IMG/VR virus record: IMGVR_UViG_3300030061_003671
Location: 1 to 43,071 of that record
Direction: 5' to 3' (one strand)
DNA from: a virus
Length of the DNA stretch: 43,071 bases
The position numbers were made by a program, and so were the translations under genes. Under the pieces are notes generated by a model. The model searched no databases and had not been told where the DNA came from. It saw only the letters and a list, made by a program, of their open reading frames with translations. Of this stretch, positions 657 to 16,379 are shown piece by piece (positions within the stretch are counted from its first letter, which is position 1; each line of letters starts with the position of its first letter).

Positions 657-682
657 TCAGATAGTACTTAGGTGCTATCTGA
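657..682 (+). promoter_or_regulatory. Intercistronic stem-loop, TTAG loop
   Basis: Arms TCAGATAGTAC and GTGCTATCTGA form 11 pairs (one T.G) around TTAG, starting 6 bases after the stop at 650. Member of the recurrent early-gene hairpin family. Unlike the others, no start codon follows at about 20 bases; a second hairpin (ATATGCT/AGCATAT, 747-767) and then the hairpin at 789 come before the next gene. Confidence 0.65.
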
Positions 683-788
683 TTTTAGATAAGTAATCCT
701 TATTGTGGAAGTCTGTAATTATAGCTACAACAAGTTATAACATCTTATATGCTATTGGTAAGCATATAATGAGAAAACCATTTTTATT

Positions 789-810
789 CAGGGCACTTAA
801 TTGTGCCTTG
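789..810 (+). promoter_or_regulatory. Intercistronic stem-loop, TTAATT loop
   Basis: Arms CAGGGCAC and GTGCCTTG form 8 pairs (one G.T) around TTAATT. It is followed by an AT-only leader and the ATG at 831, 20 bases later. Member of the early hairpin family. Confidence 0.65.
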
Positions 811-830
811 AATTTAAAAATTATACTATC

Positions 831-1142
831 ATGGAAAATTATGTAACAACTTTTTTTAATCAGTACAAAAAAGCTTCTGAATGTAAATCTAATATCGTAA
901 ACATATTATGGAAAGAGCATTCAGAAATGCATCCATTTATGACTAATGAAGATATCGTTCAATTTATGAAAGATAAAGATTTAGCTAACGTATTAGTATT
1001 TCAATTTCTAAACGCAATTGATAATATGGATATAGTTAATAAATGGGCTGAAAAGAATAGTCCAGACTTAGTACTACTTATAACAAAATATAATGTAGGA
1101 ATAGAAGTCTTTGGCGCAATGCATAAAGAATTTAATATGTAA
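831..1142 (+). CDS. Hypothetical early protein, 103 aa
   Basis: Not recognised. A soluble-looking, Lys/Asn/Asp-rich protein beginning MENYVTTFFNQYKK with no visible motif, signal or membrane segment. The ATG at 831 is chosen because the hairpin at 789-810 and the standard AT leader sit directly upstream; the frame stays open to a TTG at 801, but that codon lies inside the hairpin. It sits alone between two hairpin elements. Confidence 0.65.
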   Translation: MENYVTTFFNQYKKASECKSNIVNILWKEHSEMHPFMTNEDIVQFMKDKDLANVLVFQFLNAIDNMDIVNKWAEKNSPDLVLLITKYNVGIEVFGAMHKEFNM

Positions 1143-1150
1143 TTGTAAAT

Positions 1151-1174
1151 CGGGTAACACTTAGGTGTTACTCG
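1151..1174 (+). promoter_or_regulatory. Intercistronic stem-loop, TTAG loop
   Basis: Arms CGGGTAACAC and GTGTTACTCG give 10 pairs with one G.T around TTAG, i.e. an RNA C(UUAG)G loop. It starts 8 bases after the stop at 1142 and ends 19 bases before the ATG at 1194. The leader GAATTTTAAAATTATATATT follows. Confidence 0.75.
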
Positions 1175-1193
1175 AATTTTAAAATTATATATT

Positions 1194-1649
1194 ATGAATT
1201 ACAAAACTTTCAAAAATATCGTAAACGATATTAATTCAATGGAAAAAGATATAGTACAAATTGAAAATGCTAATAAAGTTATTAGAGATTTAATATGTAT
1301 GGGTTATCTAAATGCATCAGAAATGACAGAACATTTAGACATTGAATTAAAATCAATAATAAATGATGTTAAATCTTCTATAAAAGAAGATAAAGAAAAG
1401 ATTGAAGATTATTTATTTCTTAATCAACATTTATCTTTTGAAGAAGATAAAAAATGGTTAGGTATGAATGGAGATACTGAAATTTCAACTTCTTATTCGT
1501 GTCCTCATTGTGAACTTGAATTTATTCAAAATGAACATATTTGTGGTACAAATTTAGTTGCACCAGAAGAAATGGAAGGTATATTATTTCTTGAGAAATT
1601 AAAATGTTCTTGTTGCAATAAAGAATACATTACTCAAAATGGTGTATAA
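1194..1649 (+). CDS. Hypothetical early protein with C-terminal zinc-ribbon-like cysteines
   Basis: A 151-residue protein. The first two thirds look helical and charged, possibly coiled coil. The C-terminal third has CPHC near residue 103 and CSCC near residue 140, spaced like the two knuckles of a zinc ribbon, with another Cys (HICG) between. Such ribbons usually bind nucleic acid or protein; no specific family is recognised. The start follows the standard hairpin and AT leader. The protein ends next to a structured non-coding element (1669-1740). Confidence 0.7.
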   Translation: MNYKTFKNIVNDINSMEKDIVQIENANKVIRDLICMGYLNASEMTEHLDIELKSIINDVKSSIKEDKEKIEDYLFLNQHLSFEEDKKWLGMNGDTEISTSYSCPHCELEFIQNEHICGTNLVAPEEMEGILFLEKLKCSCCNKEYITQNGV

Positions 1650-1668
1650 TTCCGTTCAGTAATTCTTA

Positions 1669-1740
1669 TTTAATGTTACAGAGCAAGCTCTGGCGTTCAA
1701 GCTACGCTTGTCGGCTGATCGCCGAACACTTAACATTAAA
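1669..1740 (+). ncRNA. Possible multibranched structured RNA element
   Basis: Closing arms TTTAATGTTA (1669-1678) and TAACATTAAA (1731-1740) pair perfectly over 10 bases. Inside are three separate hairpins: CAGAG/CTCTG (1679-1692), CAAGC/GCTTG (1698-1710, loop TAC) and CGGC/GCCG (1712-1724, loop TGATC). GTT (1695-1697) can also pair with AAC (1725-1727). The stretch is much more GC-rich than its surroundings and lies between a stop codon and the next intercistronic hairpin. It superficially recalls a cloverleaf, but arm and loop sizes do not fit a tRNA. Function unknown. Confidence 0.45.
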
Positions 1741-1761
1741 ACGAATAACTTCTCTACATTT

Positions 1762-1785
1762 CAACAGGTACTTTGGTGCCTGTTG
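1762..1785 (+). promoter_or_regulatory. Intercistronic stem-loop, TTTG loop
   Basis: Arms CAACAGGTAC and GTGCCTGTTG form 10 pairs (one T.G) around TTTG. It ends 19 bases before the ATG at 1805, with the leader AATTTATAAATTATATACT between. Confidence 0.75.
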
Positions 1786-1804
1786 AATTTATAAATTATA
1801 TACT

Positions 1805-2077
1805 ATGAAAACGTATGACTTGAAAATTTACCCACATTTGTTAATGGTAAGAGGTAATGAAGACAAATTTACTGCAATGAATTATGCAGAAGAAGTTTAC
1901 ATTATTGTTATAGATATGTTTAAAAAACATAAAATTAAATATTTAGATGAAAGCAATAATGTAGATTGTATTCTACTAATCTTAGAGCCTGATGATATAA
2001 AAACAGAGGTTATAGTAAAAAAAATATTATGCATATTTGACTGCATTGCTAAAAGAGAAAGATTTATTCTCATATAA
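1805..2077 (+). CDS. Hypothetical early protein, 90 aa
   Basis: Not recognised. A compact protein beginning MKTYDLKIYPHLLMV, with alternating hydrophobic segments (VYIIVIDMF, CILLILEP) that suggest a small alpha/beta fold rather than a membrane protein. It lies between two hairpin elements, so it has its own leader at 5' and a new element 4 bases after its stop. Confidence 0.65.
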   Translation: MKTYDLKIYPHLLMVRGNEDKFTAMNYAEEVYIIVIDMFKKHKIKYLDESNNVDCILLILEPDDIKTEVIVKKILCIFDCIAKRERFILI

Positions 2078-2081
2078 ATTA

Positions 2082-2109
2082 TTCAACCAGCACTTTGTTG
2101 TTGGTTGAA
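2082..2109 (+). promoter_or_regulatory. Intercistronic stem-loop, CTTTGT loop
   Basis: Arms TTCAACCAGCA and TGTTGGTTGAA form 11 pairs (one G.T) around CTTTGT. It starts 4 bases after the stop at 2077 and ends 18 bases before ATG 2128. The leader TTTATAAAATTATATACA is nearly the same as at 1785-1804. Confidence 0.75.
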
Positions 2110-2127
2110 TTTATAAAATTATATACA

Positions 2128-2229
2128 ATGAAAAAAAAAACTTCAGAGAATACAGCAGGGGTAGAAGCAATGCTAATATTTTTAATAACTATAATTTCTG
2201 TTGTGTTAACAGCATATTTAACACAATAA
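2128..2229 (+). CDS. Small single-pass membrane protein, 33 aa
   Basis: A short gene beginning MKKKTSENTAGVEAM followed by one hydrophobic stretch (LIFLITIISVVLTAYL) and ending LTQ. The positive N-terminus and single membrane segment suggest an inner-membrane peptide. The hairpin and AT leader directly upstream match those of longer early genes, which is the main reason to call so short a reading frame. The next gene starts 3 bases after its stop. Confidence 0.6.
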   Translation: MKKKTSENTAGVEAMLIFLITIISVVLTAYLTQ

Positions 2230-2232
2230 ATT

Positions 2233-2448
2233 ATGGATATTAATAAACTCCAAAATATGTATGAACATATAAATACAATAGATATATTGTATAATGTTCC
2301 ACCATTAAGTATTTCAGATAGAAAAGTATTTATGCCATTAGAAGAATGGATTAAATACAAATTATATTTTGATTTACTTAACGATATGAAGAATTGGATA
2401 ACATTCAATCAAAAATATCCTAAACTTCTTAATATCAGTTTAAATTAA
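2233..2448 (+). CDS. Hypothetical early protein, 71 aa
   Basis: Not recognised. A small soluble protein starting MDINKLQNMYEHINT, with no clear motif. It begins 3 bases after the stop of the 33-residue membrane peptide, without a hairpin between, so the two are probably translated from one message. The next hairpin element begins 5 bases after its stop. Confidence 0.6.
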   Translation: MDINKLQNMYEHINTIDILYNVPPLSISDRKVFMPLEEWIKYKLYFDLLNDMKNWITFNQKYPKLLNISLN

Positions 2449-2453
2449 GTTTT

Positions 2454-2492
2454 ACAAAGAATAACAGAGCCAAAAGCTTTGTTGTTCTTTGT
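2454..2492 (+). promoter_or_regulatory. Long intercistronic stem-loop, 17 pairs
   Basis: Outer arms ACAAAGAATAAC and GTTGTTCTTTGT form 12 pairs (one T.G). Inner arms AGAGC and GCTTT extend this to 17 pairs around CAAAA. It starts 5 bases after the stop at 2448; ATG 2515 follows after a 22-base AT leader. Longest stem of the family, before the largest gene of this part. Confidence 0.7.
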
Positions 2493-2514
2493 TTAATAAA
2501 TAAAACTTAAAATT

Positions 2515-3294
2515 ATGATTATAATTAATGAAGAACAGTATTTGAATGATTTAACTCTTGAGCATACAGCTAAGAGTGTAACTGAAAGAAGAACTACTAA
2601 AGATGGTTTGCATAGATTAAATGCGTGTAACGTACATATATCTCCTAAAACCAACTCTACATCAATTAAATTTGATTTAGTAAATAATCTTAACTCCGAA
2701 ATGGGAGTAGATGATTATTTAAGATTTAGTAGTTATGGAAATTTTGATAGCTCAATGAATAAATTGAGATATTTATTTCAAAATTTAATTAGTAAAGAAT
2801 TTCTTATTGAGAATGAAAAGAATGGTAAATTACCAAACTTAGCAATTCCAAAAAGAATTGATTTTACTAATACAGCTACAGGAGAAATTCATCAGAATGT
2901 AATACAAACTTTTACTTTAGATTTAAAAGGTATGTGGGTACAAGCTACTGCAATCAATCCAGAAAATGTTGGAGATGCATATAAAGATTTACTTTCTAAA
3001 AAAATGAAAGAAATTAGAGCGTCTTTAGGAGATGAAAGATTTGATTTAGTAGAGGCAACTGCATATACTAAAACTGAAGAAGTTTTAAAAGCAGATGGAA
3101 CTAAAAAGACTGTAGCAATTGAAAGAACTTATACTGCTATTAGAATTGATGAAACTAAAGTTCAACAATTTGCTAATAATTTAGTAGGTTTAATGCAAGA
3201 GCATTTAAATAAGTTTATAATTCTAAAAACGTTTGTAGCTAAAAATGGAGTAACCAAAGTAAGCTCTTACGAGAAAAATCATTTACTTTCATAG
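2515..3294 (+). CDS. Hypothetical early protein, 259 aa
   Basis: Not recognised. A 259-residue soluble protein with mixed alpha/beta character, beginning MIIINEEQYLNDLTLEH and ending SSYEKNHLLS. A run near the middle (VIQTFTLDLKGMWVQA) looks like a beta-rich core. No catalytic motif, signal peptide or membrane segment is visible. It is a single-gene unit: strong hairpin leader upstream and a T-tailed terminator downstream (3318-3347). This pattern is compatible with high independent expression, but that is inference. Confidence 0.7.
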   Translation: MIIINEEQYLNDLTLEHTAKSVTERRTTKDGLHRLNACNVHISPKTNSTSIKFDLVNNLNSEMGVDDYLRFSSYGNFDSSMNKLRYLFQNLISKEFLIENEKNGKLPNLAIPKRIDFTNTATGEIHQNVIQTFTLDLKGMWVQATAINPENVGDAYKDLLSKKMKEIRASLGDERFDLVEATAYTKTEEVLKADGTKKTVAIERTYTAIRIDETKVQQFANNLVGLMQEHLNKFIILKTFVAKNGVTKVSSYEKNHLLS

Positions 3295-3317
3295 TAGATA
3301 ATTTAAATTCAAATATA

Positions 3318-3347
3318 GGGAACAACATAAAAGTTGTTCCCTTTTTT
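3318..3347 (+). terminator. Rho-independent-type terminator
   Basis: Arms GGGAACAAC and GTTGTTCCC give a perfect 9-pair stem around ATAAAA, followed by six T. It lies 23 bases after the stop at 3294 and is the clearest terminator of the left part. Confidence 0.8.
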
Positions 3348-3381
3348 ATTGCTTGATACTTTACTGATTATATTTTTTTGA

Positions 3382-3433
3382 TTGAACTCCCAATAGGGCC
3401 GGAAACCTTTTAGAGTAACATCGGGCTGTTCAA
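3382..3433 (+). other. Structured spacer with closing inverted repeat
   Basis: TTGAAC (3382-3387) pairs with GTTCAA (3428-3433). Inside are a CCC-AATA-GGG hairpin and the string GGAAACCTT. The same GGAAACCTT occurs in another gene-free spacer at about 4279-4288 (after GCCCTGG). Richer in G and C than surrounding genes. Function unknown. Confidence 0.35.
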
Positions 3434-3498
3434 GTAAAATGTTATTTGTAAATTGTAGAATAGAAATTAATTTTTTAAAACCCCTAATTAAAACTAAC

Positions 3499-3813
3499 AT
3501 GGAAACAATTGAGATCCCAGGAATATTAGTAATTTGTCTTATACCAACATTTCTACTTTTGTTATTTAGGTTTTACTACCTACTAACAATTATAGAAGAT
3601 TATAATATGTATTTGCGTCATATGAAACTTGAGTTATTAAAGATGAAACGCTTAGATATTAAAACAGAACATTATTTTGACAGAAGTGAATTAGATATAA
3701 CGCTTAAGCTATATATAGATATAAGAAAATGGAGCTTAAAACAAATAGTAGAAGATAAACTATTGCTATTTGAAGTTAAAAGATTTATCAAAAATCACCG
3801 AATTTTAGAGTAA
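3499..3813 (+). CDS. Membrane-anchored hypothetical protein, 104 aa
   Basis: The N-terminus has one strong hydrophobic segment (ILVICLIPTFLLLLFRFYYL, about residues 9-28), followed by a charged helical region rich in Leu, Lys and Glu. This predicts an inner-membrane protein with a cytoplasmic coiled-coil-like tail. ATG 3499 is preferred; the frame is open further upstream, but that stretch overlaps a structured spacer. No family is recognised. Confidence 0.6.
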   Translation: METIEIPGILVICLIPTFLLLLFRFYYLLTIIEDYNMYLRHMKLELLKMKRLDIKTEHYFDRSELDITLKLYIDIRKWSLKQIVEDKLLLFEVKRFIKNHRILE

Positions 3814-3837
3814 ATAAAATTGTGCGTTTTAGTGCTT

Positions 3838-3858
3838 GCCACAGCTCTTTGTTGTGGC
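3838..3858 (+). promoter_or_regulatory. Intercistronic stem-loop, TCTTT loop
   Basis: Arms GCCACAGC and GTTGTGGC form 8 pairs (one G.T) around TCTTT. AAATAAAAT before and ATTTTATTT after can extend pairing. It shares the apex CTTTGTTG with the family members at 2082 and 7993, but the next start (3927) is 68 bases away. Confidence 0.5.
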
Positions 3859-3926
3859 TTGCATTTTATTTATATAATAATCTGCATTTTTTAACTATAT
3901 ATAAATCAATCTAAATTTAACTGATT

Positions 3927-4250
3927 ATGACAAAAATTGCGCACATTTTAAAAGAAACTGAACTTAAAAGTCTGGAAAAACTAAGTATTAATCTTAAAAA
4001 AAATGACTTTAAGATAGCTGGAAAGCTATATTCAGCTCTAAAAACATATTGTATTACTCGAAAAATACAAATGAAATTAGATCCTAAAGGAAGAATAAAA
4101 AAAGTTCTGATTAATGTAGAAGGTAATCTTGTATTAGCTAAACCTATTATCCAGAATAATAAATTAGTATTCTTTTACAAAAAAAAGTATTACAGCTCAT
4201 TAGAAGCTATTAACCAAAAAATTGAATACACTTGTGAAATGAAGAAATAA
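3927..4250 (+). CDS. Basic hypothetical protein, 107 aa
   Basis: Not recognised. A Lys-rich, strongly basic protein (MTKIAHILKETELKS at the N-terminus, several KKK runs), with a probable helical first half and a beta-rich second half (KVLINVEGNLVLAKP). The charge would suit nucleic-acid binding, but no motif supports it. A 92-base gene-free spacer with the GGAAACCTT string follows before the next hairpin. Confidence 0.6.
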   Translation: MTKIAHILKETELKSLEKLSINLKKNDFKIAGKLYSALKTYCITRKIQMKLDPKGRIKKVLINVEGNLVLAKPIIQNNKLVFFYKKKYYSSLEAINQKIEYTCEMKK

Positions 4251-4342
4251 CAATAAAGACATAGCTTATTTAAAGCCCTGGGGAAACCTTAAACACAAAA
4301 TTGTAAAAACTATGATACCATTGAGATAGTCATAGGATAATT

Positions 4343-4377
4343 AGAACAATAACGTACTTAATGTACGTTGTTGTTCT
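4343..4377 (+). promoter_or_regulatory. Intercistronic stem-loop, 15 pairs, TTAAT loop
   Basis: Arms AGAACAATAACGTAC and GTACGTTGTTGTTCT form 15 pairs (one T.G) around TTAAT. The start codon at 4405 follows after a 27-base AT-rich leader. Confidence 0.75.
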
Positions 4378-4404
4378 TTAGTTTTACAATATAATTTTAA
4401 ATTT

Positions 4405-4722
4405 ATGCAAGAAAATACTTATCAATTAATTAAAGAATTTAAATACAGAGATTTAGATGGTGTAGACCATTTTAGATACTTTGTAGAAGAAAATGGAGAT
4501 TTACTATCTCATACATTATGTGACAGTTTAGAAGAAGCTGATAAATGGTATGATAGCTTAGTTAATCCATCAGAACAAGTACCTGATAAAATTACAATAT
4601 TAAAAACTGATATTGTAAAAAAATATTCAGGTAATCATGTAGATTTTGATACTGGATTATCTAAATTAATAGGATTTGACGTTAAAAAGTTAGATGATCT
4701 TGATATAAGACCAAAAGATTAA
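4405..4722 (+). CDS. Hypothetical acidic protein, 105 aa
   Basis: Not recognised. An acidic soluble protein starting MQENTYQLIKEFKYRDLDGVDHFRY, then a VEENGDLLSHTL segment, suggesting a small beta-hairpin-rich domain. No cysteines pattern, signal or membrane segment. It stands alone between a hairpin leader and a terminator-like element at 4832-4867; the 110 bases between hold weak inverted repeats (for example GTTGA/TCAAC at 4808-4823). Confidence 0.6.
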   Translation: MQENTYQLIKEFKYRDLDGVDHFRYFVEENGDLLSHTLCDSLEEADKWYDSLVNPSEQVPDKITILKTDIVKKYSGNHVDFDTGLSKLIGFDVKKLDDLDIRPKD

Positions 4723-4831
4723 AAAATTGGTAGACAGTGGCGTATATTGTCTTTAATTAAATGCAGAATGAGTATGTCAGCCAAGCATTCAGCCAATATT
4801 ATGTGCGTTGATTAATGTCAACATAAAAATT

Positions 4832-4867
4832 GGGGAACAGTGTTTTACATTGTTTCCCTTTTTTTTT
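4832..4867 (+). terminator. Terminator-like hairpin placed just before a start codon
   Basis: Arms GGGGAACAGTG and CATTGTTTCCC form 11 pairs with two G.T, loop TTTTA, then nine T. It fits a terminator for the gene at 4405-4722, yet the ATG at 4879 is only 11 bases after the T run, so a promoter for that gene must lie within it or transcription reads through. Confidence 0.7.
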
Positions 4868-4878
4868 ATCTTTAGATA

Positions 4879-5112: not shown

Positions 5113-5149
5113 TTTGCTTTGGTGTAGTTTACATTTAAAAACTACACAG

Positions 5150-5365: not shown

Positions 5366-5372
5366 TCATTCT

Positions 5373-5897: not shown

Positions 5898-5899
5898 CT

Positions 5900-6567: not shown

Positions 6568-6573
6568 GAAATT

Positions 6574-6608
6574 TTATCAAGTCGCATCACTTTGGTGTGG
6601 CTTGATAA
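6574..6608 (+). promoter_or_regulatory. Intercistronic stem-loop before the PRTRC cassette
   Basis: Outer arms TTATCAAG and CTTGATAA (8 pairs) and an inner CAC/GTG around TTTG, with an internal loop between. It begins 6 bases after the stop at 6567; the AT leader and ATG 6624 follow. The apex CACTTTGGTG is the family signature. Confidence 0.7.
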
Positions 6609-6623
6609 TTTAAAACTATATAT

Positions 6624-7394
6624 ATGAATGATAAATTTTTCCAACAAATTAACAACTTATTATTAATAAGCGAAACAGTTAATATTACTATTCGAAAGAA
6701 TAATGAACATGAATTAACTGTAAGTGTAAACCCATTAATAAAAGTTCAAGACAAAGCAAAAGATTTACTACAACCAATATTATTTACTGGTACTGTAGAA
6801 GAATTTGATGCTCAATTTTTTCAATTATTAGCTAAACCTCTACAACAAACAAGTGGATTATTAAGAAATATACATCAACACGAACAATCAGTAGAAAAAG
6901 CTAAAGAAGAATCAGCAATAGCAAAAGCAGAAAAAGACAAACAAAAGAAAGTTAGAGAAAATTCAGTTAAACAACTTGAAAAAGCTCAAAAATATTGGGA
7001 TGAAAAAGAATATGATAAATGTAAATTTATCTGTAATGAAATTCTTAAAGATGATCCTAAATTTAGTAAAGCTACACAGCTTGTTAAAGAATGTGATGCA
7101 AATAACTCTCAACCAGATATGTTTAGTCAACCATTACCTGATGTACCAAGAGCTGAACCAGTTCAAGTTGAACCAGCTCAACCTACATATCCTGATGGAA
7201 CACCAAAGATTGTAAATGAAGATAAAGAATTTGAAGCAAGAATAGATGAAGCTAATATTGAAGAATATAAAACTCCACCTACACAAGAAAATAATTCTTT
7301 AGGAACTACAATAACTGATGAGCAAACTCAAATGATTATTGATCAAAGAAACGAAAAACTAAATAATAACCCTTCTAATTATACTTATTACTAA
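6624..7394 (+). CDS. PRTRC system protein E
   Basis: A 256-residue protein. The N-terminal domain (about 1-85; SETVNITIRKNNEHELTVSV and LLQPILFTGTVEEFDAQFF) matches my memory of PRTRC protein E. A Lys/Glu-rich coiled-coil follows (90-145), then a TPR-like segment (YDKCKFICNEILKDDPKFSKA) and a Pro/Gln-rich disordered tail. PRTRC genes are a conserved cassette of plasmids and integrating elements; the molecular role of E is unknown. It is the first gene of the cassette here and overlaps the ubiquitin-like gene by one base (TAATG), indicating coupling. Confidence 0.8.
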   Translation: MNDKFFQQINNLLLISETVNITIRKNNEHELTVSVNPLIKVQDKAKDLLQPILFTGTVEEFDAQFFQLLAKPLQQTSGLLRNIHQHEQSVEKAKEESAIAKAEKDKQKKVRENSVKQLEKAQKYWDEKEYDKCKFICNEILKDDPKFSKATQLVKECDANNSQPDMFSQPLPDVPRAEPVQVEPAQPTYPDGTPKIVNEDKEFEARIDEANIEEYKTPPTQENNSLGTTITDEQTQMIIDQRNEKLNNNPSNYTYY

Positions 7395-7597: not shown

Positions 7598-7599
7598 CT

Positions 7600-7988: not shown

Positions 7989-7992
7989 GAAT

Positions 7993-8025
7993 AATCAGGG
8001 AGCAACACTTTGTTGTTCCTTGATT
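7993..8025 (+). promoter_or_regulatory. Intercistronic stem-loop inside the cassette, abutting an ATG
   Basis: Arms AATCAGGGAGCAAC and GTTGTTCCTTGATT form 14 pairs (two G.T) around ACTTT. It begins 4 bases after the stop at 7988. Unlike other members it has no AT leader: the last paired base touches the ATG at 8026, which would place that start against the stem. Confidence 0.75.
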
Positions 8026-8196
8026 ATGAAAAAAGAAAACTTATACATAAAACTATTAGAATGCAAACCCAAGAAATACATCAATCCAAACGTGGCGATT
8101 GCAAGAATAATATTGCACGAAAGCGAAGACAAACGAAATGTAGTACAAGAAGAAAGACTAAAAACTCCTTCTTGTCTATTAAGACCCCTATTTTAA
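8026..8196 (+). CDS. Short frame (56 aa) overlapping the 5' end of the next gene
   Basis: The frame from ATG 8026 encodes a natural-looking peptide (MKKENLYIKLLECKPKKYIN at the start, SCLLRPLF at the end) with codons typical of this genome. Over the same stretch the frame of the following long gene reads as a Lys/Arg/Gln-rich string with codons rare here (CGA, CGT, ACG). So the true coding frame from 8026 to about 8190 may be this one, either as a separate small gene or as the N-terminal part of the next gene disconnected by a frameshift. Confidence 0.4.
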   Translation: MKKENLYIKLLECKPKKYINPNVAIARIILHESEDKRNVVQEERLKTPSCLLRPLF

Positions 8197-9092
8197 AATC
8201 TAAATCTGATTTAATTTTTTACAAAAATCCTAAACAGCTATTAAAATTGTTATATCCAATTGGAAAACATTATATAAATGATGATATACCTAACATGGAT
8301 ATATATGAGTTTAATAATTATTTAATTAAAAAAATAACTAAAGATTTAAATAATTGGAATATATATCAAAATGATAAAATGGAATTAGAACTATGGACTG
8401 GACAAGGAAATGGTTTTGATAATGGATTTTGTGCTGAATTAGAATGGATTTTTAATTTAAAAGAAGAATTTCAAACTTTTATGTGGGATTATTTTTCTTA
8501 TTTAGTTCAAAAATTTAATATACCATTCTTACATAATATAGATTATATGGTAGATATTTCAGATGATTATTTTACTGAAAATTTAGAAGATATAGATGAT
8601 ATTGACCAAATGGACGAAATGAAACAAACTTTAAAAGTTTATAGAAATAAAGTTTTACCATTATATCAAAAAGTTAATTTTGAAAAATCTATAGATACTG
8701 AATTTACTTTAAAAGATAAATTGAGTAAAATAAAAATAAATAATTATAAAGATCAAAAGTTAGTTGCATGGATTGAAGAAGGTTTTGAAATTGTAAATGT
8801 TAATTTTAACGATTTTATTCCATTTAAAAGTCTGATGAAAAATAATGATGTAGATGATTATTTATTTGGTCCAGAATATTATGCTAATTTTTTATGGTCT
8901 ATTGAAGAAACAGATTTTGTTTTTCAACGATATGAAGAACAAGGTCAGTATTATTATAATAACTGTGAAATCTTACCATTTTATAAAGAACAACAATTAA
9001 CAGAAAATAATCCTTTTTTAAAAGATTATAATAATGATTTTCCAGAAAAATATAAAAAATGGTTAGAAAATAGTTACTTAATTTATGAATAA
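8061..9092 (+). CDS. Cassette protein in the position of PRTRC system protein F
   Basis: A long acidic protein (343 residues if ATG 8061 is used; the first comfortable internal ATG is 8295, giving 265). Segments such as MELELWTGQGNGFDNGFCAE and VNFEKSIDTEFTL look well folded, but I do not recognise a catalytic motif. It lies between PRTRC-C and PRTRC-B, where PRTRC-F would be plausible; the resemblance is positional, not firm in sequence. The 5' end is unresolved because the region 8061-8200 reads better in the frame starting at 8026. It overlaps the Mom-like gene by one base (TAATG). Confidence 0.45.
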   Translation: MQTQEIHQSKRGDCKNNIARKRRQTKCSTRRKTKNSFLSIKTPILKSKSDLIFYKNPKQLLKLLYPIGKHYINDDIPNMDIYEFNNYLIKKITKDLNNWNIYQNDKMELELWTGQGNGFDNGFCAELEWIFNLKEEFQTFMWDYFSYLVQKFNIPFLHNIDYMVDISDDYFTENLEDIDDIDQMDEMKQTLKVYRNKVLPLYQKVNFEKSIDTEFTLKDKLSKIKINNYKDQKLVAWIEEGFEIVNVNFNDFIPFKSLMKNNDVDDYLFGPEYYANFLWSIEETDFVFQRYEEQGQYYYNNCEILPFYKEQQLTENNPFLKDYNNDFPEKYKKWLENSYLIYE

Positions 9093-9718
9093 TGAAGTTA
9101 ATTAAAAATGAATGGGAAGTTCAAAGAATAGGAAAATCTGAAGCAGATAATTTTGTTGAACAATGGCATTATGCACATAAAGCTGGATATTTAGCTCATA
9201 GATGTTATGGTCTTTTTTATAAAGGAGATCCTTCAACATTACATGGAGTTGCAATTTGGAATACACCAGCTTTAGGAGCAGCTAAATATGTTAGTAATAA
9301 TCATCAATCAGTTTTAGGATTAAGTAGATTTTGTTTAGTTGAAAATAGACCTGAAAATGCAGGTTCATTTTTAATTAGCAAAAGTATTAAAATGCTAAAT
9401 ACTAAAAGATGGCAAACGTTATTAACATATGCTGATACTGCTCATAATCACAATGGTGGCTTATATAGAGCTTCTAATTGGGATTATAATGGAATAACTA
9501 AAAAGAACCCTTATTATGTAAATGATAAAGGAGAAATGGTTAGCAGAAAATCAGGTGCTAAGACTTACAATAAACAAGAAATGTTAGATAAAGGTTACAT
9601 TTTTAAAGGTAATTTTTCTAAACATATGTTTATTTATCCAACAAATAGAAATATAAGAAAATCTATAGGACAACAAATAGAACTAAGCTTTACTGAAGAA
9701 GGTAAAATTAAAATATGA
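9092..9718 (+). CDS. Mom-like DNA-modification acyltransferase
   Basis: A 208-residue GNAT-fold protein resembling phage Mu Mom, which alters adenine bases in phage DNA to a carbamoylmethyl form and so blocks many restriction enzymes. Seen here: the HYAHKAGYLAHRCYGLFYKG strand region (27-45), an LGLSRFCLVENRPENAGSFL core (75-94), and the signature YADTAHNHNGGLYRASNWDY (113-132), which corresponds to the Mom-family pattern aDxxxgHxGxxYxaxnWxyxG. It sits inside the PRTRC cassette, overlapping its neighbours by 1 and 4 bases, so it is co-translated with the conjugation genes. An N-acetyltransferase acting on another substrate is the main alternative. Confidence 0.75.
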   Translation: MKLIKNEWEVQRIGKSEADNFVEQWHYAHKAGYLAHRCYGLFYKGDPSTLHGVAIWNTPALGAAKYVSNNHQSVLGLSRFCLVENRPENAGSFLISKSIKMLNTKRWQTLLTYADTAHNHNGGLYRASNWDYNGITKKNPYYVNDKGEMVSRKSGAKTYNKQEMLDKGYIFKGNFSKHMFIYPTNRNIRKSIGQQIELSFTEEGKIKI

Positions 9719-11147: not shown

Positions 11148-11150
11148 ATA

Positions 11151-11178
11151 AAAGGGCACCAAATCTTTGGTGTCCTTT
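11151..11178 (+). promoter_or_regulatory. Intercistronic stem-loop, ATCT loop
   Basis: Arms AAAGGGCACCAA and TTGGTGTCCTTT form 12 pairs (one G.T) around ATCT; one more A-T pair can close it to a 2-base loop. It starts 3 bases after the ThiF-like stop and is followed by an 18-base AT leader and ATG 11197. Confidence 0.75.
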
Positions 11179-11196
11179 GTTTTAAAATATATATAT

Positions 11197-12303
11197 ATGG
11201 AAATACAAACAATTGACCCAACAGAGAAGTCTATACTTCAAGAAAAAATAACAAGAAAATTGAGTAATGCATCTGATAAAATGCCAATTATTCAAAAAAT
11301 TCAAGACGAAAGTAATAACATTATAGATTATGTTGTTCCTATTGGTAAAGATTCACCTATAATTAATTTTAATTCAAATGGTGTAGTAAAAATGCAATTT
11401 GAAAATGCTGAAAAGAATATTCATAGACATGCAATTGGACAATTTGCAGATAAATTTGGAATACCTACAACCTATTTGAAAAATTTAGCTACTGGTAAAG
11501 AGCAATGGGAAAGAGATTTAGCAAGTAAATTATTAAATGAACACTCAACTAATAATGAAAGCAAAAGATATCTTTTAAGAGAACTAAATGGAGAAGTTAA
11601 AGGTGTTTTGTCTGATAAATATAGAAGATTAAATACAGCTGAAATTTATGCTGAATTTTTTAACGCCTGTGTAGATCAAGGAGCAAAATTATTAGATTGT
11701 TGTTATGACCCTACAAGAACTTATATAGAATTTATATTACCTCAAGTAGTGCCTGTACAAACACAATACAATGGTACAACATATATGGTATTTGGACTTA
11801 GAATTTCTAACTCTGATTATGGAGATGGAGCATTAAGAGTTCAATCATATTCTATGCAAGTAGTTTGTTTAAATGGAATGACAAGAGAAAATTTAATTAG
11901 ACAAGTTCATTTAGGTAAAAAGTTACCAGATAATTTAATTTTAAGTAATGAAACATATAAATTAGATACCGAAACTCAAGCTTCTTTAGTTAGAGATATT
12001 GTAAAAAGTGCTTTTGATAGTAGTTATTTATTTAATGAAATTCAAAACATTGAGAAAGCCGGTTCTAAGCTAATTAATTTAGATCACGAAGTTAAATTAC
12101 TTCCAAAATTAGGTATGAGAAAAGAAGAAGTTAAATCATTAACTGATATCTTATCTGATAATAACCCAGAACATGGTGTACAAGGTAGAAATACTATTTG
12201 GAAACTTACTCAAGCAATGACTCAAGTAGGTGTTCAAACTGGAAATACACGAAGAAAAAGAGATATAGAAGATATCGCAGGTAAATTAATAACTAAAATA
12301 TGA
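11197..12303 (+). CDS. DUF932 phage/plasmid-like protein
   Basis: A 368-residue protein of the DUF932 (phage/plasmid-like protein) family. Typical segments are HAIGQFADKFGIPTTYLKNL (about 73-92), LRELNGEVKGVLSDKYRRLN (about 125-144), SDYGDGALRVQSYSMQVVCL (about 205-224) and a C-terminal helical part. The family is widespread in phages and conjugative elements and often found beside PRTRC genes; its biochemical role is unknown to me. ATG 11197 is set by the hairpin and AT leader; the frame extends upstream into the hairpin. Overlaps the next gene by 4 bases. Confidence 0.85.
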   Translation: MEIQTIDPTEKSILQEKITRKLSNASDKMPIIQKIQDESNNIIDYVVPIGKDSPIINFNSNGVVKMQFENAEKNIHRHAIGQFADKFGIPTTYLKNLATGKEQWERDLASKLLNEHSTNNESKRYLLRELNGEVKGVLSDKYRRLNTAEIYAEFFNACVDQGAKLLDCCYDPTRTYIEFILPQVVPVQTQYNGTTYMVFGLRISNSDYGDGALRVQSYSMQVVCLNGMTRENLIRQVHLGKKLPDNLILSNETYKLDTETQASLVRDIVKSAFDSSYLFNEIQNIEKAGSKLINLDHEVKLLPKLGMRKEEVKSLTDILSDNNPEHGVQGRNTIWKLTQAMTQVGVQTGNTRRKRDIEDIAGKLITKI

Positions 12304-12629
12304 AAATTGAAAAAGTTTTAGAAAAAAAAGTAAATAACCTTTATGATGTAGAAGTTGAAGAACTTGCTCTATTAATCAAAGATAAAATAGAAAAGAAAAA
12401 AACAAAATTTCAAGGATATGATGCTTCTTGTGTTAATTTTAATAAATCAGACGTTATTGAAATATTTGAAAAATATGCAACTGAAAAACAATATGGTAGT
12501 CCAAATACAGTAAGTTTAAAATTGTTTATTAAAGCAATGATTTCTCATAGAGTTGAGCAAAAAGGTAAAGAAAGAATAGCAAAATCTTTACTATCTAAAG
12601 TTGAAAGTTTTTTTAAAGAAGATGAATAA
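12300..12629 (+). CDS. Hypothetical basic helical protein, 109 aa
   Basis: Not recognised. A Lys/Glu-rich, largely helical protein (MKIEKVLEKKVNNLYDVEVE) with no cysteine or catalytic pattern. It overlaps the DUF932 gene by 4 bases and the next gene by 1, placing it in a three-gene coupled unit. Confidence 0.6.
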   Translation: MKIEKVLEKKVNNLYDVEVEELALLIKDKIEKKKTKFQGYDASCVNFNKSDVIEIFEKYATEKQYGSPNTVSLKLFIKAMISHRVEQKGKERIAKSLLSKVESFFKEDE

Positions 12630-13063
12630 TGGGATTCTTTAGTTGGGATTGCTCTTGTTGTAATGAGAGCATTAAAAATGCGTATACTCAATATGATAAT
12701 GGAATTGTATTAGTTACAGAAAATGATATAATAATAGACCCTTCTTATGATGGTTATGGAAATATCAAAGGAAAAGATATTTTTATTTTAGCAAAATATA
12801 AAGGAGATCCTAAGATTATATCTAAGATATACAAAGATTCACCAAGTAATATAGATATAGAAAGACAACAAGCAGTAACTGAATACTATGATAGGAAATT
12901 TCCTATTAAAGCTTTGCATTTATCTTGTTATCAAGCTATAACTCAAAAACTTGACACTTTTGTTCTTAAAGACTTTTATGATAATTTAAAAGTATCTGAA
13001 TTAGCAGAAGATCAAGGATTTTTTACTGATGAAAAATTAAATGAAATTTTTAAAGATTTCTAA
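12629..13063 (+). CDS. Conserved phage-type protein starting MGFFSWDCSCC
   Basis: A 144-residue protein. The N-terminus MGFFSWDCSCCNESI with a Cys cluster and the motif DPSYDGYGNI (about 36-45) match a small family that I recall from phages and bacteria, always with this aromatic start and a YDGYG turn. A second Cys (LHLSCYQA) lies near residue 95, so a metal site is possible. Function unknown. It closes the unit 11197-13063, and a hairpin starts 5 bases after its stop. Confidence 0.65.
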   Translation: MGFFSWDCSCCNESIKNAYTQYDNGIVLVTENDIIIDPSYDGYGNIKGKDIFILAKYKGDPKIISKIYKDSPSNIDIERQQAVTEYYDRKFPIKALHLSCYQAITQKLDTFVLKDFYDNLKVSELAEDQGFFTDEKLNEIFKDF

Positions 13064-13068
13064 ATTAA

Positions 13069-13098
13069 TCAAGGTACACCTTCTTTGGTGTGCCTTGA
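13069..13098 (+). promoter_or_regulatory. Intercistronic stem-loop, TTCTTT loop
   Basis: Arms TCAAGGTACACC and GGTGTGCCTTGA form 12 pairs (one T.G) around TTCTTT. It is 5 bases after the previous stop, with ATG 13112 following after 13 AT-only bases. Confidence 0.75.
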
Positions 13099-13111
13099 AA
13101 TTATAAATTAT

Positions 13112-14509
13112 ATGACAGACCAACTAACATTTTTACAAGAAGGTACATTTTTTGGACAAAATAATAGCGATTTAGAAGAAGTTGTATTAGGAACTTTTAT
13201 TAACTATCCTGACAGATATTATGAATTTGCAGACCAGGTTAATATTAAAGGTTTTTCTACAGAATCATCAAGATACGTATTTACAGCAATCAAAGAATGT
13301 GCAGAAGATTCCAAAATAGATATTATAACTGTAACAGATAAAGTAACTTCAAAAGGTTATAATGCAAGAATTATTGAAAAAACAGGTTATACATTAATAG
13401 ATTACATTAACGATATAGCAGATAGAGTTTCATCTGATGCTCATATAAAACAGCATATTAAATTATTAATGGCTTATTCAACCAGAAGAGAATTATTAAC
13501 TCTATCAAATGAGATTAATAAAGATTCTAATGATATGGTTAGTCCAGATGATATAATAGCTAAAATAACAGATAAAATTGTTGAATTACAAGAATATGCA
13601 GATGTTGAAGAATATAATCCTATCAAAACTTTACAAGGAGTTATTGATAATATGTCAGATAAAGAGGGCAAAAATTATATTAAAACATTTATTCAAGAAA
13701 TTGACAATTTTATATTTGGATGGGAATTATCAGATTTAATTATAATAGCTGGAGCTGCCTCTATGGGTAAAACAGCATTTGTATTAGAAATTGTTAAAAA
13801 TCACATTATTAGAAACTTACCTGTAGCTGTTTTTTCTTTAGAAATGTCTAAAGAGCAAATGTTAACAAGAATGATTGCATCTCATGGTTGTATAGATTTA
13901 GGAAAGATTAGAAAAAAACAATTAACCTCAACAGATTGGAATGCATTTTATGATTCTGCCAAATATTTTGAAAATGAAAATTATTTTATTGACGATAAAT
14001 CTGGCGATTTAAATCACATATGTAATAAAATCAGAAAATTAAATATTAAAAATAATTGTAAATTTTTTGTTGTAGATTATTTACAATTAGTAACTATTAA
14101 TTTAAAAAGTAAATCTGGAACAAGAGAACAGGAAATATCTAAAATATCAAGAGCATTTAAACAGCTATGTAGAGAACTAAAATTAGTTATTATAGCTTTG
14201 TCTCAAATTAGCAGAGCTGTATCACAGAGAGCAAGTAAAAAACCAATATTATCTGATTTAAGAGAATCAGGTGCTATTGAGCAAGATGCTGATATGGTAA
14301 TGTTTGTTTATAGACCAGCTTATTATGATATTGAAGAAAGAATACCTGAAATTGAAAACGTAGAAATAATAATAGCAAAAGGTAGATCAACCGGTATTGG
14401 AAGTGAAAACTTAAAATATATAGGAAAATTTGCCAAATTTGCTTCTGAAGTAGAATTTTTAGAAAATGAAAAATTACAAGCATTCGAAAATTATAACCGA
14501 GATTTCTAA
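13112..14509 (+). CDS. dnaB: Replicative DNA helicase, DnaB family
   Basis: A 465-residue DnaB-type helicase of about normal length. The N-terminal domain (LEEVVLGTFINYPDRYYEFA onward) resembles the DnaB primase-interaction domain. The RecA-like domain carries Walker A GAASMGKT (about 214-221), the SLEMSKEQMLTRMIA helix, Walker B VVDYLQL, and the region LSQISRAVSQRASKKPILSD with the arginine-bearing DLRESGAIEQDAD motif. It unwinds DNA at the phage fork as a hexamer. ATG 13112 follows a hairpin with a short AT leader. Its 3' end overlaps the HU-like gene by 44 bases. No helicase loader or primase is obvious in the window. Confidence 0.95.
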   Translation: MTDQLTFLQEGTFFGQNNSDLEEVVLGTFINYPDRYYEFADQVNIKGFSTESSRYVFTAIKECAEDSKIDIITVTDKVTSKGYNARIIEKTGYTLIDYINDIADRVSSDAHIKQHIKLLMAYSTRRELLTLSNEINKDSNDMVSPDDIIAKITDKIVELQEYADVEEYNPIKTLQGVIDNMSDKEGKNYIKTFIQEIDNFIFGWELSDLIIIAGAASMGKTAFVLEIVKNHIIRNLPVAVFSLEMSKEQMLTRMIASHGCIDLGKIRKKQLTSTDWNAFYDSAKYFENENYFIDDKSGDLNHICNKIRKLNIKNNCKFFVVDYLQLVTINLKSKSGTREQEISKISRAFKQLCRELKLVIIALSQISRAVSQRASKKPILSDLRESGAIEQDADMVMFVYRPAYYDIEERIPEIENVEIIIAKGRSTGIGSENLKYIGKFAKFASEVEFLENEKLQAFENYNRDF

Positions 14510-14714
14510 AAAATTAGGGATTGACGGTGCTGTGGTAAATATTGTAGTTATTCATTTTTTTAATAGCGTAAGACAAGCTTTGCAAAAAAATGAAGAAATT
14601 AATCTTAAGGGATATTTCAAAATTAAAATGCTTAAACGCTATAAAAACAAAATTCAGAAAGAAGGAAATGATATAAATTTAAGAAAAAGAAAACATCAAA
14701 AAAGATACAAATAA
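14466..14714 (+). CDS. HU/IHF-like DNA-bending protein
   Basis: An 82-residue basic protein. ITEISKKLGIDGAVVNIVVI and then FFNSVRQALQKNEEINLKGY match the helical half of HU/IHF proteins, including the conserved step into the beta-sheet (INLKGYFKIKM). The arm region is short and Lys/Arg-rich. HU-like proteins bend DNA in replication, recombination or packaging. The start lies 44 bases inside the helicase gene, so the exact start could be later. Confidence 0.65.
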   Translation: MKNYKHSKIITEISKKLGIDGAVVNIVVIHFFNSVRQALQKNEEINLKGYFKIKMLKRYKNKIQKEGNDINLRKRKHQKRYK

Positions 14715-14763
14715 TTTGCTTTTCTTAAAGTATATCTTTAAATTTAATCAGTAAATATCAACT

Positions 14764-15024
14764 TTGAAAAAAGTATTAAAATATAAAATTAATCAAGATG
14801 AATACTTGAAAGAAGTTAATGTTCGCTTAAATGAAAATGCTAAAATGCAAGATTTTTTATTAATACAAAGATTAGTTGAAGTAACAACTATGCATAGATG
14901 CAAATCTAAATTTGGCGAATTGATTAACATAGGGAAAAAAGAAATTCAACCAGTCCCTAAGATAGAAAAAGAATACGAAAATGTATTAGAAAATGAATTA
15001 GTAATTCTAATTTTTAAAAACTAA
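14764..15024 (+). CDS. Hypothetical protein, 86 aa, TTG start
   Basis: Not recognised. The best start is TTG 14764 (reading KKVLKYKINQDEYLKEVNVR), since no ATG occurs near the 5' end; the next in-frame ATG is 28 residues in. The C-terminus is mixed (ENELVILIFKN). It abuts the ATPase gene with no gap, so it belongs to the replication module. Confidence 0.5.
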   Translation: MKKVLKYKINQDEYLKEVNVRLNENAKMQDFLLIQRLVEVTTMHRCKSKFGELINIGKKEIQPVPKIEKEYENVLENELVILIFKN

Positions 15025-15702
15025 ATGAAACCGAATATTTTTATATGTGGCCCATCAGGGACAGGTAAAAGTACGTCAATGCGTAACTTACCACCTGAAA
15101 GAACAGTAATATTAAATACTGAACAAAAAGCTCTTCCTTTTAGAAAAGGAATAGAATTTAAACTTAATGTACCAATTAATTCTCTTCAATTATTTAAAAC
15201 AGCTTTATCTAAAGCAATTGAAAATCCTAATGTAGATATAATAGTAATTGAAAGTTTTACTTCTTTAATAGAAACAATATACATGAAAGCAAAATCATTA
15301 TACGATGGTTTTGATGTATGGGATTATTATAAGAATGAAATCAAGAAAATTATGGAAATGTCTAAGAATACAGATAAATACATAATTTTTATAGGTATAG
15401 ATCAATTCGTTGAAGGAGATTCTGGAGTCGAAGAAAGATTTATAGCTGTAGATGGTAGTTGGAAGAAAAAAGTTGAAAAAGAATTTGTAATAGTAATTTA
15501 TTCTGAAGCTAAAGAAATAAACGATAAGCAAGAATATAGATTTATAACAAATAAACAACCTGGATATAATAGAATATCAGCTAAATCACCAATGGAAATG
15601 TTACCTCCAATTATGGATAATGACATTAAAGTAATATTAGATGAAGTTGATAAATATTATGGTTGGGATAAAAAAACAGAAATCAAAAAAACCGATAAAT
15701 AA
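15025..15702 (+). CDS. Phage P-loop ATPase (AAA_24/Sak4-like)
   Basis: A 225-residue nucleotide-binding protein. Walker A GPSGTGKST sits at 9-17. A Walker B-type strand (VDIIVIESFTSL) follows near 75-85, and a later strand reads KYIIFIGIDQF. This is the layout of phage RecA-like ATPases of the AAA_24/Sak4 kind, often beside SSB and exonuclease genes and thought to act in single-strand annealing or strand exchange. Here the SSB-like gene overlaps it by one base, supporting a recombination or replication role. Confidence 0.75.
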   Translation: MKPNIFICGPSGTGKSTSMRNLPPERTVILNTEQKALPFRKGIEFKLNVPINSLQLFKTALSKAIENPNVDIIVIESFTSLIETIYMKAKSLYDGFDVWDYYKNEIKKIMEMSKNTDKYIIFIGIDQFVEGDSGVEERFIAVDGSWKKKVEKEFVIVIYSEAKEINDKQEYRFITNKQPGYNRISAKSPMEMLPPIMDNDIKVILDEVDKYYGWDKKTEIKKTDK

Positions 15703-16337
15703 TGGATATAAACGCAGAGTTAGAGCTCGTAAAAGACTTTGATAATTCAAGCAAATTTATAAATGAGCCTGGAGTATTTATAGTTAAGATTAAATCATAT
15801 CTTCTTTCTGAAAGTAGAAAAGATTATAAGGGTAATCCTTATATTGAATTTGCAGTAGAAACTGAAGATCAAAAAACAAGTAATGTTACTTTTTATTTAT
15901 TAACAGGAAAAGAATCTGAAAAAGCCAGAGAATTTAAATTAAAAAGACTTAAAGAGTTTTTGTCAAATGCTAATGCTGATGATAATTTAAAAGGTGGTGA
16001 GTATTTAAATTCTATTATTGGAAGTAAAATAAAAGCTTTATTTAAAAAATCTGAATATATAGGTAAAGACAAAAACAATTTTAACAAACCTGTTATAAAA
16101 GAAATAATTGAATATAGTTTTTCTTCTAAGCCAGAAGAAACAATAAAAGGTGTACAATCATATTTTCACACTCCTTTAAGACCTACTGATATGGAGAAAT
16201 TTAATCTTCGATTAGCAGAATGGGAATCAGAACATAAACAATCAACAACGGCTGCCCCCAAGGCAGAGCCAGTTGTTGATAAGGGTATGTCTGATGATTC
16301 TTTAGGTGATGAAAAAGGCGATGATTTACCATTTTAA
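15702..16337 (+). CDS. Single-stranded DNA-binding-like protein with DDLPF tip
   Basis: A 211-residue protein: an OB-fold-sized N-terminal part (FINEPGVFIVKIKSYLLSES, then YIEFAVETEDQKTSNVTFYL) followed by a Thr/Ala/Pro-rich linker and an acidic tail ending GDDLPF, the classic tip by which SSB recruits partner enzymes. It follows a recombination-type ATPase and precedes a NinB-like gene. The family could be a phage SSB or a DUF669-like protein. The same five-residue tip ends the first gene of the window. Confidence 0.75.
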   Translation: MDINAELELVKDFDNSSKFINEPGVFIVKIKSYLLSESRKDYKGNPYIEFAVETEDQKTSNVTFYLLTGKESEKAREFKLKRLKEFLSNANADDNLKGGEYLNSIIGSKIKALFKKSEYIGKDKNNFNKPVIKEIIEYSFSSKPEETIKGVQSYFHTPLRPTDMEKFNLRLAEWESEHKQSTTAAPKAEPVVDKGMSDDSLGDEKGDDLPF

Positions 16338-16344
16338 GATTAAT

Positions 16345-16366
16345 AAAGGGCACTTCGGTGTCCTTT
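16345..16366 (+). promoter_or_regulatory. Intercistronic stem-loop with TTCG tetraloop
   Basis: Arms AAAGGGCAC and GTGTCCTTT form 9 pairs (one G.T) around TTCG: in RNA a C(UUCG)G loop, one of the most stable tetraloops known. It is 7 bases after the SSB-like stop and 13 bases before ATG 16380. Confidence 0.8.
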
Positions 16367-16379
16367 GTTATTTAATATT

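Follow-up and report, generated by a model that had tools for sequence, protein, structure and literature searches.

Conserved RNA hairpins between the early genes of a diverse phage clade

Results

Early genes of the window and the hairpins between them

The stretch of DNA analyzed here (hereafter, the window) is the virus record IMGVR_UViG_3300030061_003671, which comprises 43,071 bases; the elements in question are RNA hairpins that stand between its early genes. The non-structural genes occupy the + strand up to ~20.8 kb from the left end, and the late genes are found beyond this position on the - strand. Among the + strand products are a DnaB-type helicase, a Sak4-like annealing protein, an SSB, a NinB/Orf-like protein, an exonuclease, and a DnaA-type HTH protein; the same strand features a PRTRC-like cassette that includes a Mom-like gene. 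Judging from the sequence, the host is probably a member of the Bacteroidota, because the window has promoter-like boxes and leaders without Shine-Dalgarno (SD) signals, and because a Croceibacter phage carries a distantly related protein (42%). No relatives of the protein encoded at 11197 were found in the bacterial genomes that were scanned.

A sequence-only reading of the window had described 12 hairpins on the + strand. A mechanical scan that required stems of 9 bp or more, including 3 or more G-C pairs, found them all: it returned 24 hairpins on the + strand, with these 12 among them, and 6 on the - strand. The rest of the 24 include T-run terminators (3317, 4832, and 20769) and stems inside coding sequence. 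A 13th hairpin (3838-3858), overlooked in the earlier reading, emerged when the stem cut-off was lowered. The 12 hairpins have stems of 11–17 bp and predicted folding energies of -14.5 to -21.3 kcal/mol. The whole-sequence scan placed no strong hairpin in window gaps of 12 nt or less, and no comparable array was evident in the late regions of the window and of two close relatives, where one T-run hairpin before a late gene of L027 and a few weak stems were listed.

Most of the 12 had been said to begin 3–8 bases after a stop codon and to be followed, after a short leader, by an ATG. Indeed, nine start 2–7 nt after a stop (those at 786, 1760, and 4343 do not), and ten end 9–27 nt upstream of an ATG, with the stem at 16341 extending a few pairs past the one originally drawn. 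The two exceptions that had been named are real: the hairpin at 657 is without a nearby ATG, and the stem at 7991 takes in part of the ATG at 8026. G.U pairs, claimed for nearly all stems, occur at least once in each of the 12, and the C(UUNG)G loop attributed to several of them occurs in its exact form in four (657, 1150, 1760, and 16341).

Relatives were found with two proteins of the window. The protein encoded at 11197 matched 7 contigs in IMG/VR, at protein identities of 98–99% or 78%, and an alignment search with the Sak4 protein yielded 43 loci, 34 of which had identities of 46–61% and some of which are near-duplicates of one another (individual loci carry L numbers). In most of the loci found through Sak4, the + strand shows the same order repeatedly: a stop codon, then a hairpin, an A/U-rich leader, and an ATG. 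Many orthologous gene starts in the close relatives keep hairpins with changed stem letters. All 86 matching records of named phages had Sak4 identities below 60%, the highest among the matches listed being 29.3%.

Pairing and covariation in the + strand RNA

Junctions between neighboring genes were searched for stems with a strand-neutral score, which weighs G.T and A.C mispairs equally and does not favor G.U. After the removal of near-duplicates, the sample comprised 126 of an initial 153 + strand junctions whose gaps measured 31–90 nt. At the threshold score of 18, a stem was present in 84 of these junctions (67%) vs. 3.7% of mononucleotide shuffles; at a score of 24, the corresponding figures were 41% and 0.16%. 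The shuffles used here and in the box counts below preserve base composition only. The mispairs in the 84 stems comprised 142 G.T, 5 A.C, and 12 others, and base composition predicts a G.T to A.C ratio of ~2 to 1. This excess of G.T therefore points to the RNA of the + strand, as there is no reason for it on the complementary strand or in a palindrome of duplex DNA. The earlier assertion that the stems contain G.T pairs, which hold only in + strand RNA, is borne out by these counts.

In 23 phages, we could trace the junction that follows the SSB gene. Its upstream gene mostly ends in Pro-Phe codons and a stop; the downstream gene is NinB-like by tblastn in seven of the 23 rows, and elsewhere its identity is based on its location behind Sak4. 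L047 has its NinB-like match at another place, with no hairpin upstream. In a plain sequence alignment of the 23 junctions, 86.8% of the cells pair vs. 74.8% when shuffled, and 48 cells are altered on both sides yet paired vs. 16.3 in the shuffles; neither value was reached by any of 500 shuffles. Shifting the partner by 1–3 columns lowers the pairing to 34–56%. RNAalifold proposed a nearly identical stem, with double changes in eight of 11 pairs. The row for L066 was kept in the alignment although it is visibly misaligned by one column. Because the elements of different phages share kinship, the P values overstate independence.

The question of whether the stems covary more than shuffled sequences had been set beforehand as a possible refutation, and the outcome was favorable. 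Likewise, the notion that stem letters vary while pairing is kept was substantiated both in the close relatives and by covariation at the 23-phage junction. The hairpin is a conserved structure of the + strand RNA, located between early genes. As the fold is kept while the letters change, it must be a real working part of the mRNA.

A covariance model of the hairpin

A covariance model, R1, was built from the post-SSB junction; its E-values are rough. Applied to the window and to late pieces of two relatives, R1 gave 14 matches up to E 1. It recovered 11 of the 12 noted hairpins on the + strand (seven of the 11 below E 0.1), missing the one at 4343 as well as the extra hairpin at 3838. Ten of the 11 were outside the training set, in which only 16341 had been used. 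The other matches were to a bidirectional terminator at 20755, to the reverse of 16341 on the - strand, and to one late hairpin of L027.

The model was then applied to 30 related loci, among them 28 of the 34 distant ones (L054, L067, L070, and L079 were omitted as near-duplicates). At E ≤ 0.01, R1 found 80 matches, 72 on the + strand and 8 on the - strand, each of the latter overlapping a + strand match. A + strand match was present in 27 of the 30 loci; 20 of the 30 held a training row, and eight of the other ten were matched, although two of these closely duplicate trained loci. Two more of the distant loci, which are larger, gave 30 matches up to E 1, 24 of them on the early strand; five were on the opposite strand (four of them overlapping an early-strand match), and one lay ahead of a late gene. 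Six outgroup pieces from four records (L010, L029, and L030, which belong to one record; L022; L023; and Croceibacter phage P2559S, L024) yielded a single match, at E 0.02.

Pattern and database searches were also conducted. The exact 3'-arm pattern of the close group was found in 7 viral contigs, all from that group, and in 2 unrelated Bacillota contigs; a shorter pattern was found in one unrelated contig, in a stretch that looks like coding sequence. One element searched by blastn against named phages returned 11 records with E of 2 to 5, which we regard as chance. In L012/L014, one hairpin within a coding gene also looks like chance. Rfam 15 had no match at the gathering score in the window and 8 relatives, and none at E ≤ 1 in window positions 1-20900.

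Anatomy of the element

The 84 stems from the clade define a regular element. Stem length has a median of 12.5 bp (range 7–25). The median distance is 4 nt from the stop codon to the stem (0–9 nt in 62 of the 84) and 16 nt from the stem to the ATG (8–23 nt in 73). Loops of 4–6 nt occur in 68 copies. The apex contains CUU in 67 of the 84 vs. 29% of shuffled apices, and CUUNG in 49; the exact C(UUNG)G tetraloop is present in 18, and the loop TTCG in 16. More than half of the 5' arm is purine in 74 of the 84 copies, and the 3' arm is pyrimidine. Inspection of the close relatives by eye indicates that the 3' arm sequence is retained while the 5' arm varies. The 3' arms are CUCCUU-like; the idea that they pair with 16S rRNA or mimic an anti-SD sequence was raised and dropped. 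The five bases after the stem are T in 49–56% and A in 40–44%, with no consistent U tract.

The individual features of the window are collected in Table 1. Not every site is kept: in L005, the gene orthologous to that at 2128 is without a hairpin immediately upstream of its start. At the start orthologous to 11197, four different stems are found across the window, L001, L005, and L007, even though the L001 protein is 99% identical to that of the window.

Table 1. Hairpins and associated features of the early region of the window, with their detection by model R1 and their state in related loci.
Feature	Coordinates	Strand	Structure	Context	Model R1	Relatives
Hairpin	657..682	+	11 bp, loop C(UUAG)G	6 nt past stop of 378-650 gene	match, 648-697	same hairpin at L005:128-153
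Hairpin	786..813	+	11 bp	ATG at 831, 17 nt on	E 0.12	counterparts in L002, L005
Hairpin	1150..1175	+	11 bp, C(UUAG)G	ATG at 1194, 18 nt on	match	
Hairpin	1760..1787	+	12 bp, C(UUUG)G	ATG at 1805, 17 nt on	match	different stem at orthologous start in L005
Hairpin	2081..2110	+	12 bp	ATG at 2128, 17 nt on	match	
Hairpin	2454..2492	+	17 bp	ATG at 2515, 22 nt on	E 0.34	counterpart L005:1487, stem altered
Hairpin	3838..3858	+	8 bp	24 nt past stop, 68 nt ahead of ATG 3927	missed	counterparts in L002, L005
Hairpin	4343..4377	+	15 bp	ATG at 4405, 27 nt on	missed	compensatory stem changes in L005, matched via common leader
Hairpin	6574..6608	+	16 bp	ATG at 6624, 15 nt on	E 0.26	counterparts L005:5950, L007:8
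Hairpin	7991..8027	+	17 bp	stem overlaps ATG at 8026	E 0.19	same stem-into-ATG arrangement in L005, L007
Hairpin	11151..11178	+	12 bp	ATG at 11197 (phrog_1362 protein), 18 nt on	match	
Hairpin	13069..13098	+	12 bp	ATG 13112 (DnaB-type helicase), 13 nt on	E 0.064	stems altered in L001, L005, L007
Hairpin	16341..16370	+	13 bp, C(UUCG)G	between SSB and NinB/Orf-like genes		
Leader	16371..16379	+		sample A/U-rich stretch joining stem to ATG		
Terminator	3317..3342	+	T-run	outside hairpin family		
Terminator	4832..4858	+	T-run	followed by TATCTTTA box; outside hairpin family		

Junctions with and without hairpins

The gene caller used to define junctions was crude (ATG starts only, at least 35 aa), and stems were sought in gaps >12 nt, as shorter ones leave no room. 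Removal of near-duplicates reduced the early junctions from 522 to 467 and the late ones from 112 to 105; when performed among gaps >12 nt only, it left 122 instead of 102 early junctions of 31–90 nt. Of these 122, 80 had a stem (64/102 with the stricter removal). In the other early gap classes, a stem was present in 2 of 38 junctions of 13–30 nt and in 21 of 30 junctions of >90 nt. The corresponding numbers for late junctions were 0 of 20 (13–30 nt), 4 of 13 (31–90 nt), and 1 of 6 (>90 nt).

Promoter-like boxes were counted with a loose regular expression, TAnnTTTA/G. In gaps of 31–90 nt, they occurred at 10 of 80 hairpin junctions, with 11.3 expected from shuffles, and at 19 of 42 hairpin-less ones, with 7.6 expected; strict boxes were found at 3 of 80 and 17 of 42, respectively. 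A cruder earlier count had given 9/64 vs. 18/38. There was no such contrast in gaps >90 nt: 10 of 21 junctions with a hairpin had a box (7.2 expected), as did 3 of 9 without (2.3 expected); the earlier count for longer gaps was 10/20 vs. 2/8. A host-type promoter inside the element was rejected on the basis of the counts in the 31–90-nt gaps.

In many lineages, the gene before Sak4 lacks a hairpin and has, near its start, a TACATTTA- or TATCTTTA-type box that is conserved; we take this box to be a -7 box of the Bacteroidota. Such sites are found in the window at 14714-14770 and in L055 (9684-9723), L057 (4676-4711), and L066 (9692-9727). In several distant lineages, the arrangement before this gene is GTGTATTTTTTGTACATTTAC..ATG or near it, so that the mRNA would be almost leaderless. 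Nor does a hairpin precede the genes that begin near 3499 and 4879, which follow the T-run terminators 3317 and 4832, respectively. The hairpin is thus usual at internal, uncoupled early cistrons; late genes and several promoter-proximal genes manage without it.

Leaders and start regions

The leaders of hairpin genes are A-rich at positions -12 to -10 and -3 and have U at -1, with G at 1–6% per position. Late-gene leaders have the same A pattern. A specific leader consensus that had been put forward earlier fits the copies in the window; across the clade, the leader is merely A/U-rich, with preferred A and U positions. Bacteroidota ribosomes reportedly do without SD pairing (PMC9976891, PMC6847099). 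In Flavobacterium johnsoniae, initiation is reportedly aided by A at -3, and also at -6, -12, and -13, and by low pairing between -20 and +20 (PMC6847099). The agreement of our leaders with these positions places the end of the hairpin close to the border of a normal SD-less start region.

Other features of the window and its relatives

At the far left end of the window (91-123), a hairpin is followed by ACTTTGTTG; it has the core motif and lacks the gene context. The two hairpins at 657-813 flank ~100 nt without a clear gene, an arrangement that is similar in L005. This stretch might specify a small RNA or a very short protein; in the window it has an open TTG frame, which is closed in L005. 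DDLPF forms the end both of the small protein encoded by the 378-650 gene (636-650) and of the phage SSB (16323-16337), and the small protein may be a mimic of the SSB tail, which recruits partner proteins. The Mom-like DNA modification gene is located at 9092-9718, within the PRTRC-like cassette. It has an orthologue in L007 (71%), and none is listed for L005/L006 at the same threshold.

Two large late proteins are encoded on the - strand, one of 1158 aa (32016-35492) and one of 2430 aa (35493-42785). Searches of Pfam and PHROG at E 0.001 returned an unnamed PHROG as the sole match for the former and no family for the latter. A T-run hairpin stands directly before a late gene on the - strand in L027 (2668-2699), L087 (16381-16413), and L092 (10351-10382); the genes behind it have a similar beginning in the three lineages and are possibly capsid genes. 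L047 carries a tRNA-Ile gene with a TAT anticodon (614-689).

Discussion

The central observation of the sequence-only reading is confirmed, and its interpretation is partly supported. What might these hairpins do? We give even credence to the view that they are intercistronic punctuation of a polycistronic early mRNA, a function suggested by where and how they occur. On transcription of the + strand, each hairpin folds, often into a strong stem with a UUNG-type apex. Usually sitting a few nucleotides past a stop codon and ending ~16 nt before the next AUG, it occupies the upstream edge of the SD-less, A-rich initiation region. There, it could act as a structural boundary that keeps the next start region unpaired and independent of the ribosomes arriving from the upstream gene. 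Computed folding lends weak support to such insulation: the predicted unpaired probability of the start region is 0.577 with native stems vs. 0.544 with dinucleotide-shuffled ones, and the native value is higher in 56 of 80 cases. The hairpin might also be a barrier to exonucleases, with cleavage of the long message yielding protected cistrons, as reported for the 5' CUUCGG hairpin of T4; from this analogy, we infer that it may protect or define mRNA ends.

Several findings weigh against punctuation. The gain in accessibility just described is small. At the 23-phage junction, one of five covariation measures was weaker: nine of 13 pairs had double changes vs. 6.0 in shuffles, a value that 16 of 500 shuffles equaled or exceeded. 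Among the 122 early junctions of 31–90 nt, 42 fall below the hairpin score, and 23 of these also are without a box; because the gene caller is crude, some of the hairpin-less junctions are miscalled genes, and others are hairpins below the cut. In long gaps, seven of 18 hairpins lie 5–35 nt from the called start and eight of 18 lie near the previous stop, in counts that are blurred by missed small genes; such a split favors neither the upstream nor the downstream gene as the owner. Finally, the conservation of the CUU apex and, in the close group, of the 3' arm exceeds what a purely structural barrier would need; it would also fit a binding site.

The main rival follows from this last point. 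The hairpins could be the binding site of an RNA-binding protein or endonuclease, of phage or host origin, that makes the early genes one post-transcriptional regulon; the outcome might be shut-off, antitermination, or cutting into single cistrons, as with RegA/RegB of T4 with a hairpin tag. The facts that mostly early genes carry the hairpin, that the apex is conserved, that the arms are purine- and pyrimidine-rich in a fixed order, and that the close group keeps its 3' arm while the 5' arm varies all speak for this proposal. However, no candidate protein was evident among those searched, and the minority of exact C(UUNG)G loops, the range of stem lengths, and the variable loop size are loose for a single recognized shape. 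We consider the proposal possible but rather unlikely. Also unlikely, in our estimation, is a dedicated, clade-wide RNA punctuation that cuts or insulates the early message of an SD-less phage and is read by a putative RNA-binding protein or nuclease, from phage or host, that is able to treat the early genes as one regulon.

It is improbable that the hairpins are weak intrinsic terminators or attenuators between early genes. The earlier reading had held that, of the hairpins in this region, only those at 3317 and 4832 have a terminator T run. These two do have it, but a loose terminator scan also flagged 657, 4343, and 16341 (three of the 12) and 3838 because of T-rich tails, and the local T-run terminators have the same purine/pyrimidine polarity as the hairpins. 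On the other hand, nine of the 12 were not flagged, T makes up only about half of the bases that follow the stem, and the T-run terminators (3317, 4832, and 20769) differ from the hairpins in appearance. Furthermore, essential genes, such as the helicase gene, would presumably lie downstream of many such terminators.

A role in recruiting ribosomes in place of an SD sequence, which had been among the functions originally suggested, fared poorly, and we judge it quite improbable. The proximity of the ATG and the near absence of G from the leaders are congenial to it. However, late genes mostly start without a hairpin, including all 20 with gaps of 13–30 nt; many box-bearing early junctions start genes without one; and the stem at 7991 covers part of a start codon. 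The leader is an ordinary SD-less start region: its A-rich part is common to late genes and matches the general start context of Bacteroidota (PMC6847099).

The least credible alternative is that the hairpins are DNA elements, either palindromic promoters or operators or, as in phage N4, hairpin promoters for an injected polymerase. N4 has hairpin promoters on the template strand that are used by its virion RNA polymerase; in the present phages, the mispairs favor the RNA-like strand, and no polymerase family was detected among the scanned proteins, which are a subset of all proteins. On these two grounds, we ruled out a promoter for an injected polymerase. The 2430-aa late protein, when compared with solved structures, drew two entries for the archaeal RNA polymerase subunit G/Rpo8 with E of 0.31 and 0.34, which is no better than chance. 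Like the extended start-associated sequences (ESAS) of mycobacteriophages (PMC3203893), the hairpins are repeated and lie just 5' of the starts of mostly non-structural genes; but the strand asymmetry of the mispairs fits RNA and neither duplex DNA nor the template strand, which eliminates an ESAS-like operator, and boxes are at chance in the 31–90-nt hairpin junctions.

Intercistronic UUCG-type hairpins are already known in phages as a kind, and the present family appears, by comparison, to differ from them. Intergenic regions of phages commonly contain CUUCGG hairpins, and a 5' copy is reported to stabilize the T4 gene 32 mRNA (PMC8948821, citing Tuerk 1988 and Gorski 1985). They share with ours a stable UUCG-type stem in intergenic phage mRNA and a tolerance for G-U pairs. 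Unlike them, our hairpins occupy most uncoupled early junctions of a diverse clade, with demonstrated covariation and an SD-less start region behind, and their loops form a broader family in which a CUUCGG loop is found only in a minority. The start-associated sequences (SAS) and ESAS of cluster K mycobacteriophages are likewise repeated inverted-repeat elements just 5' of non-structural genes with wide gaps, a restriction that has exceptions here, namely the late junctions with a stem (4/13 and 1/6 in the two longer gap classes). Their authors consider that these inverted repeats generally do not support RNA pairing (PMC3203893), whereas such pairing is the conserved property here. The 13-bp SAS, GGGATAGGAGCCC, had no match with up to 2 mismatches within the window. 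T4 RegB cuts GGAG/U motifs in early mRNAs and is inhibited by RNA structure (PMC3014915); in contrast to such sites, the G/A-rich arm is paired in our hairpins. With intrinsic terminators, they share a position after the stop codon, but not a consistent U tract. In the open-license literature on phage and Bacteroides hairpins, tetraloops, promoters, and start sequences, no publication on these phages or on this hairpin array was found among the matches listed.

We thus return to the hairpins as intercistronic punctuation. To our knowledge, how phages of the Bacteroidota separate the expression of neighboring genes in a long message has not been described. Here, most of the uncoupled early junctions in a diverse clade of phages carry a very regular RNA element with strong covariation. 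If this element is an insulator or a processing mark, it would also be useful as a component of operons constructed in Bacteroides.

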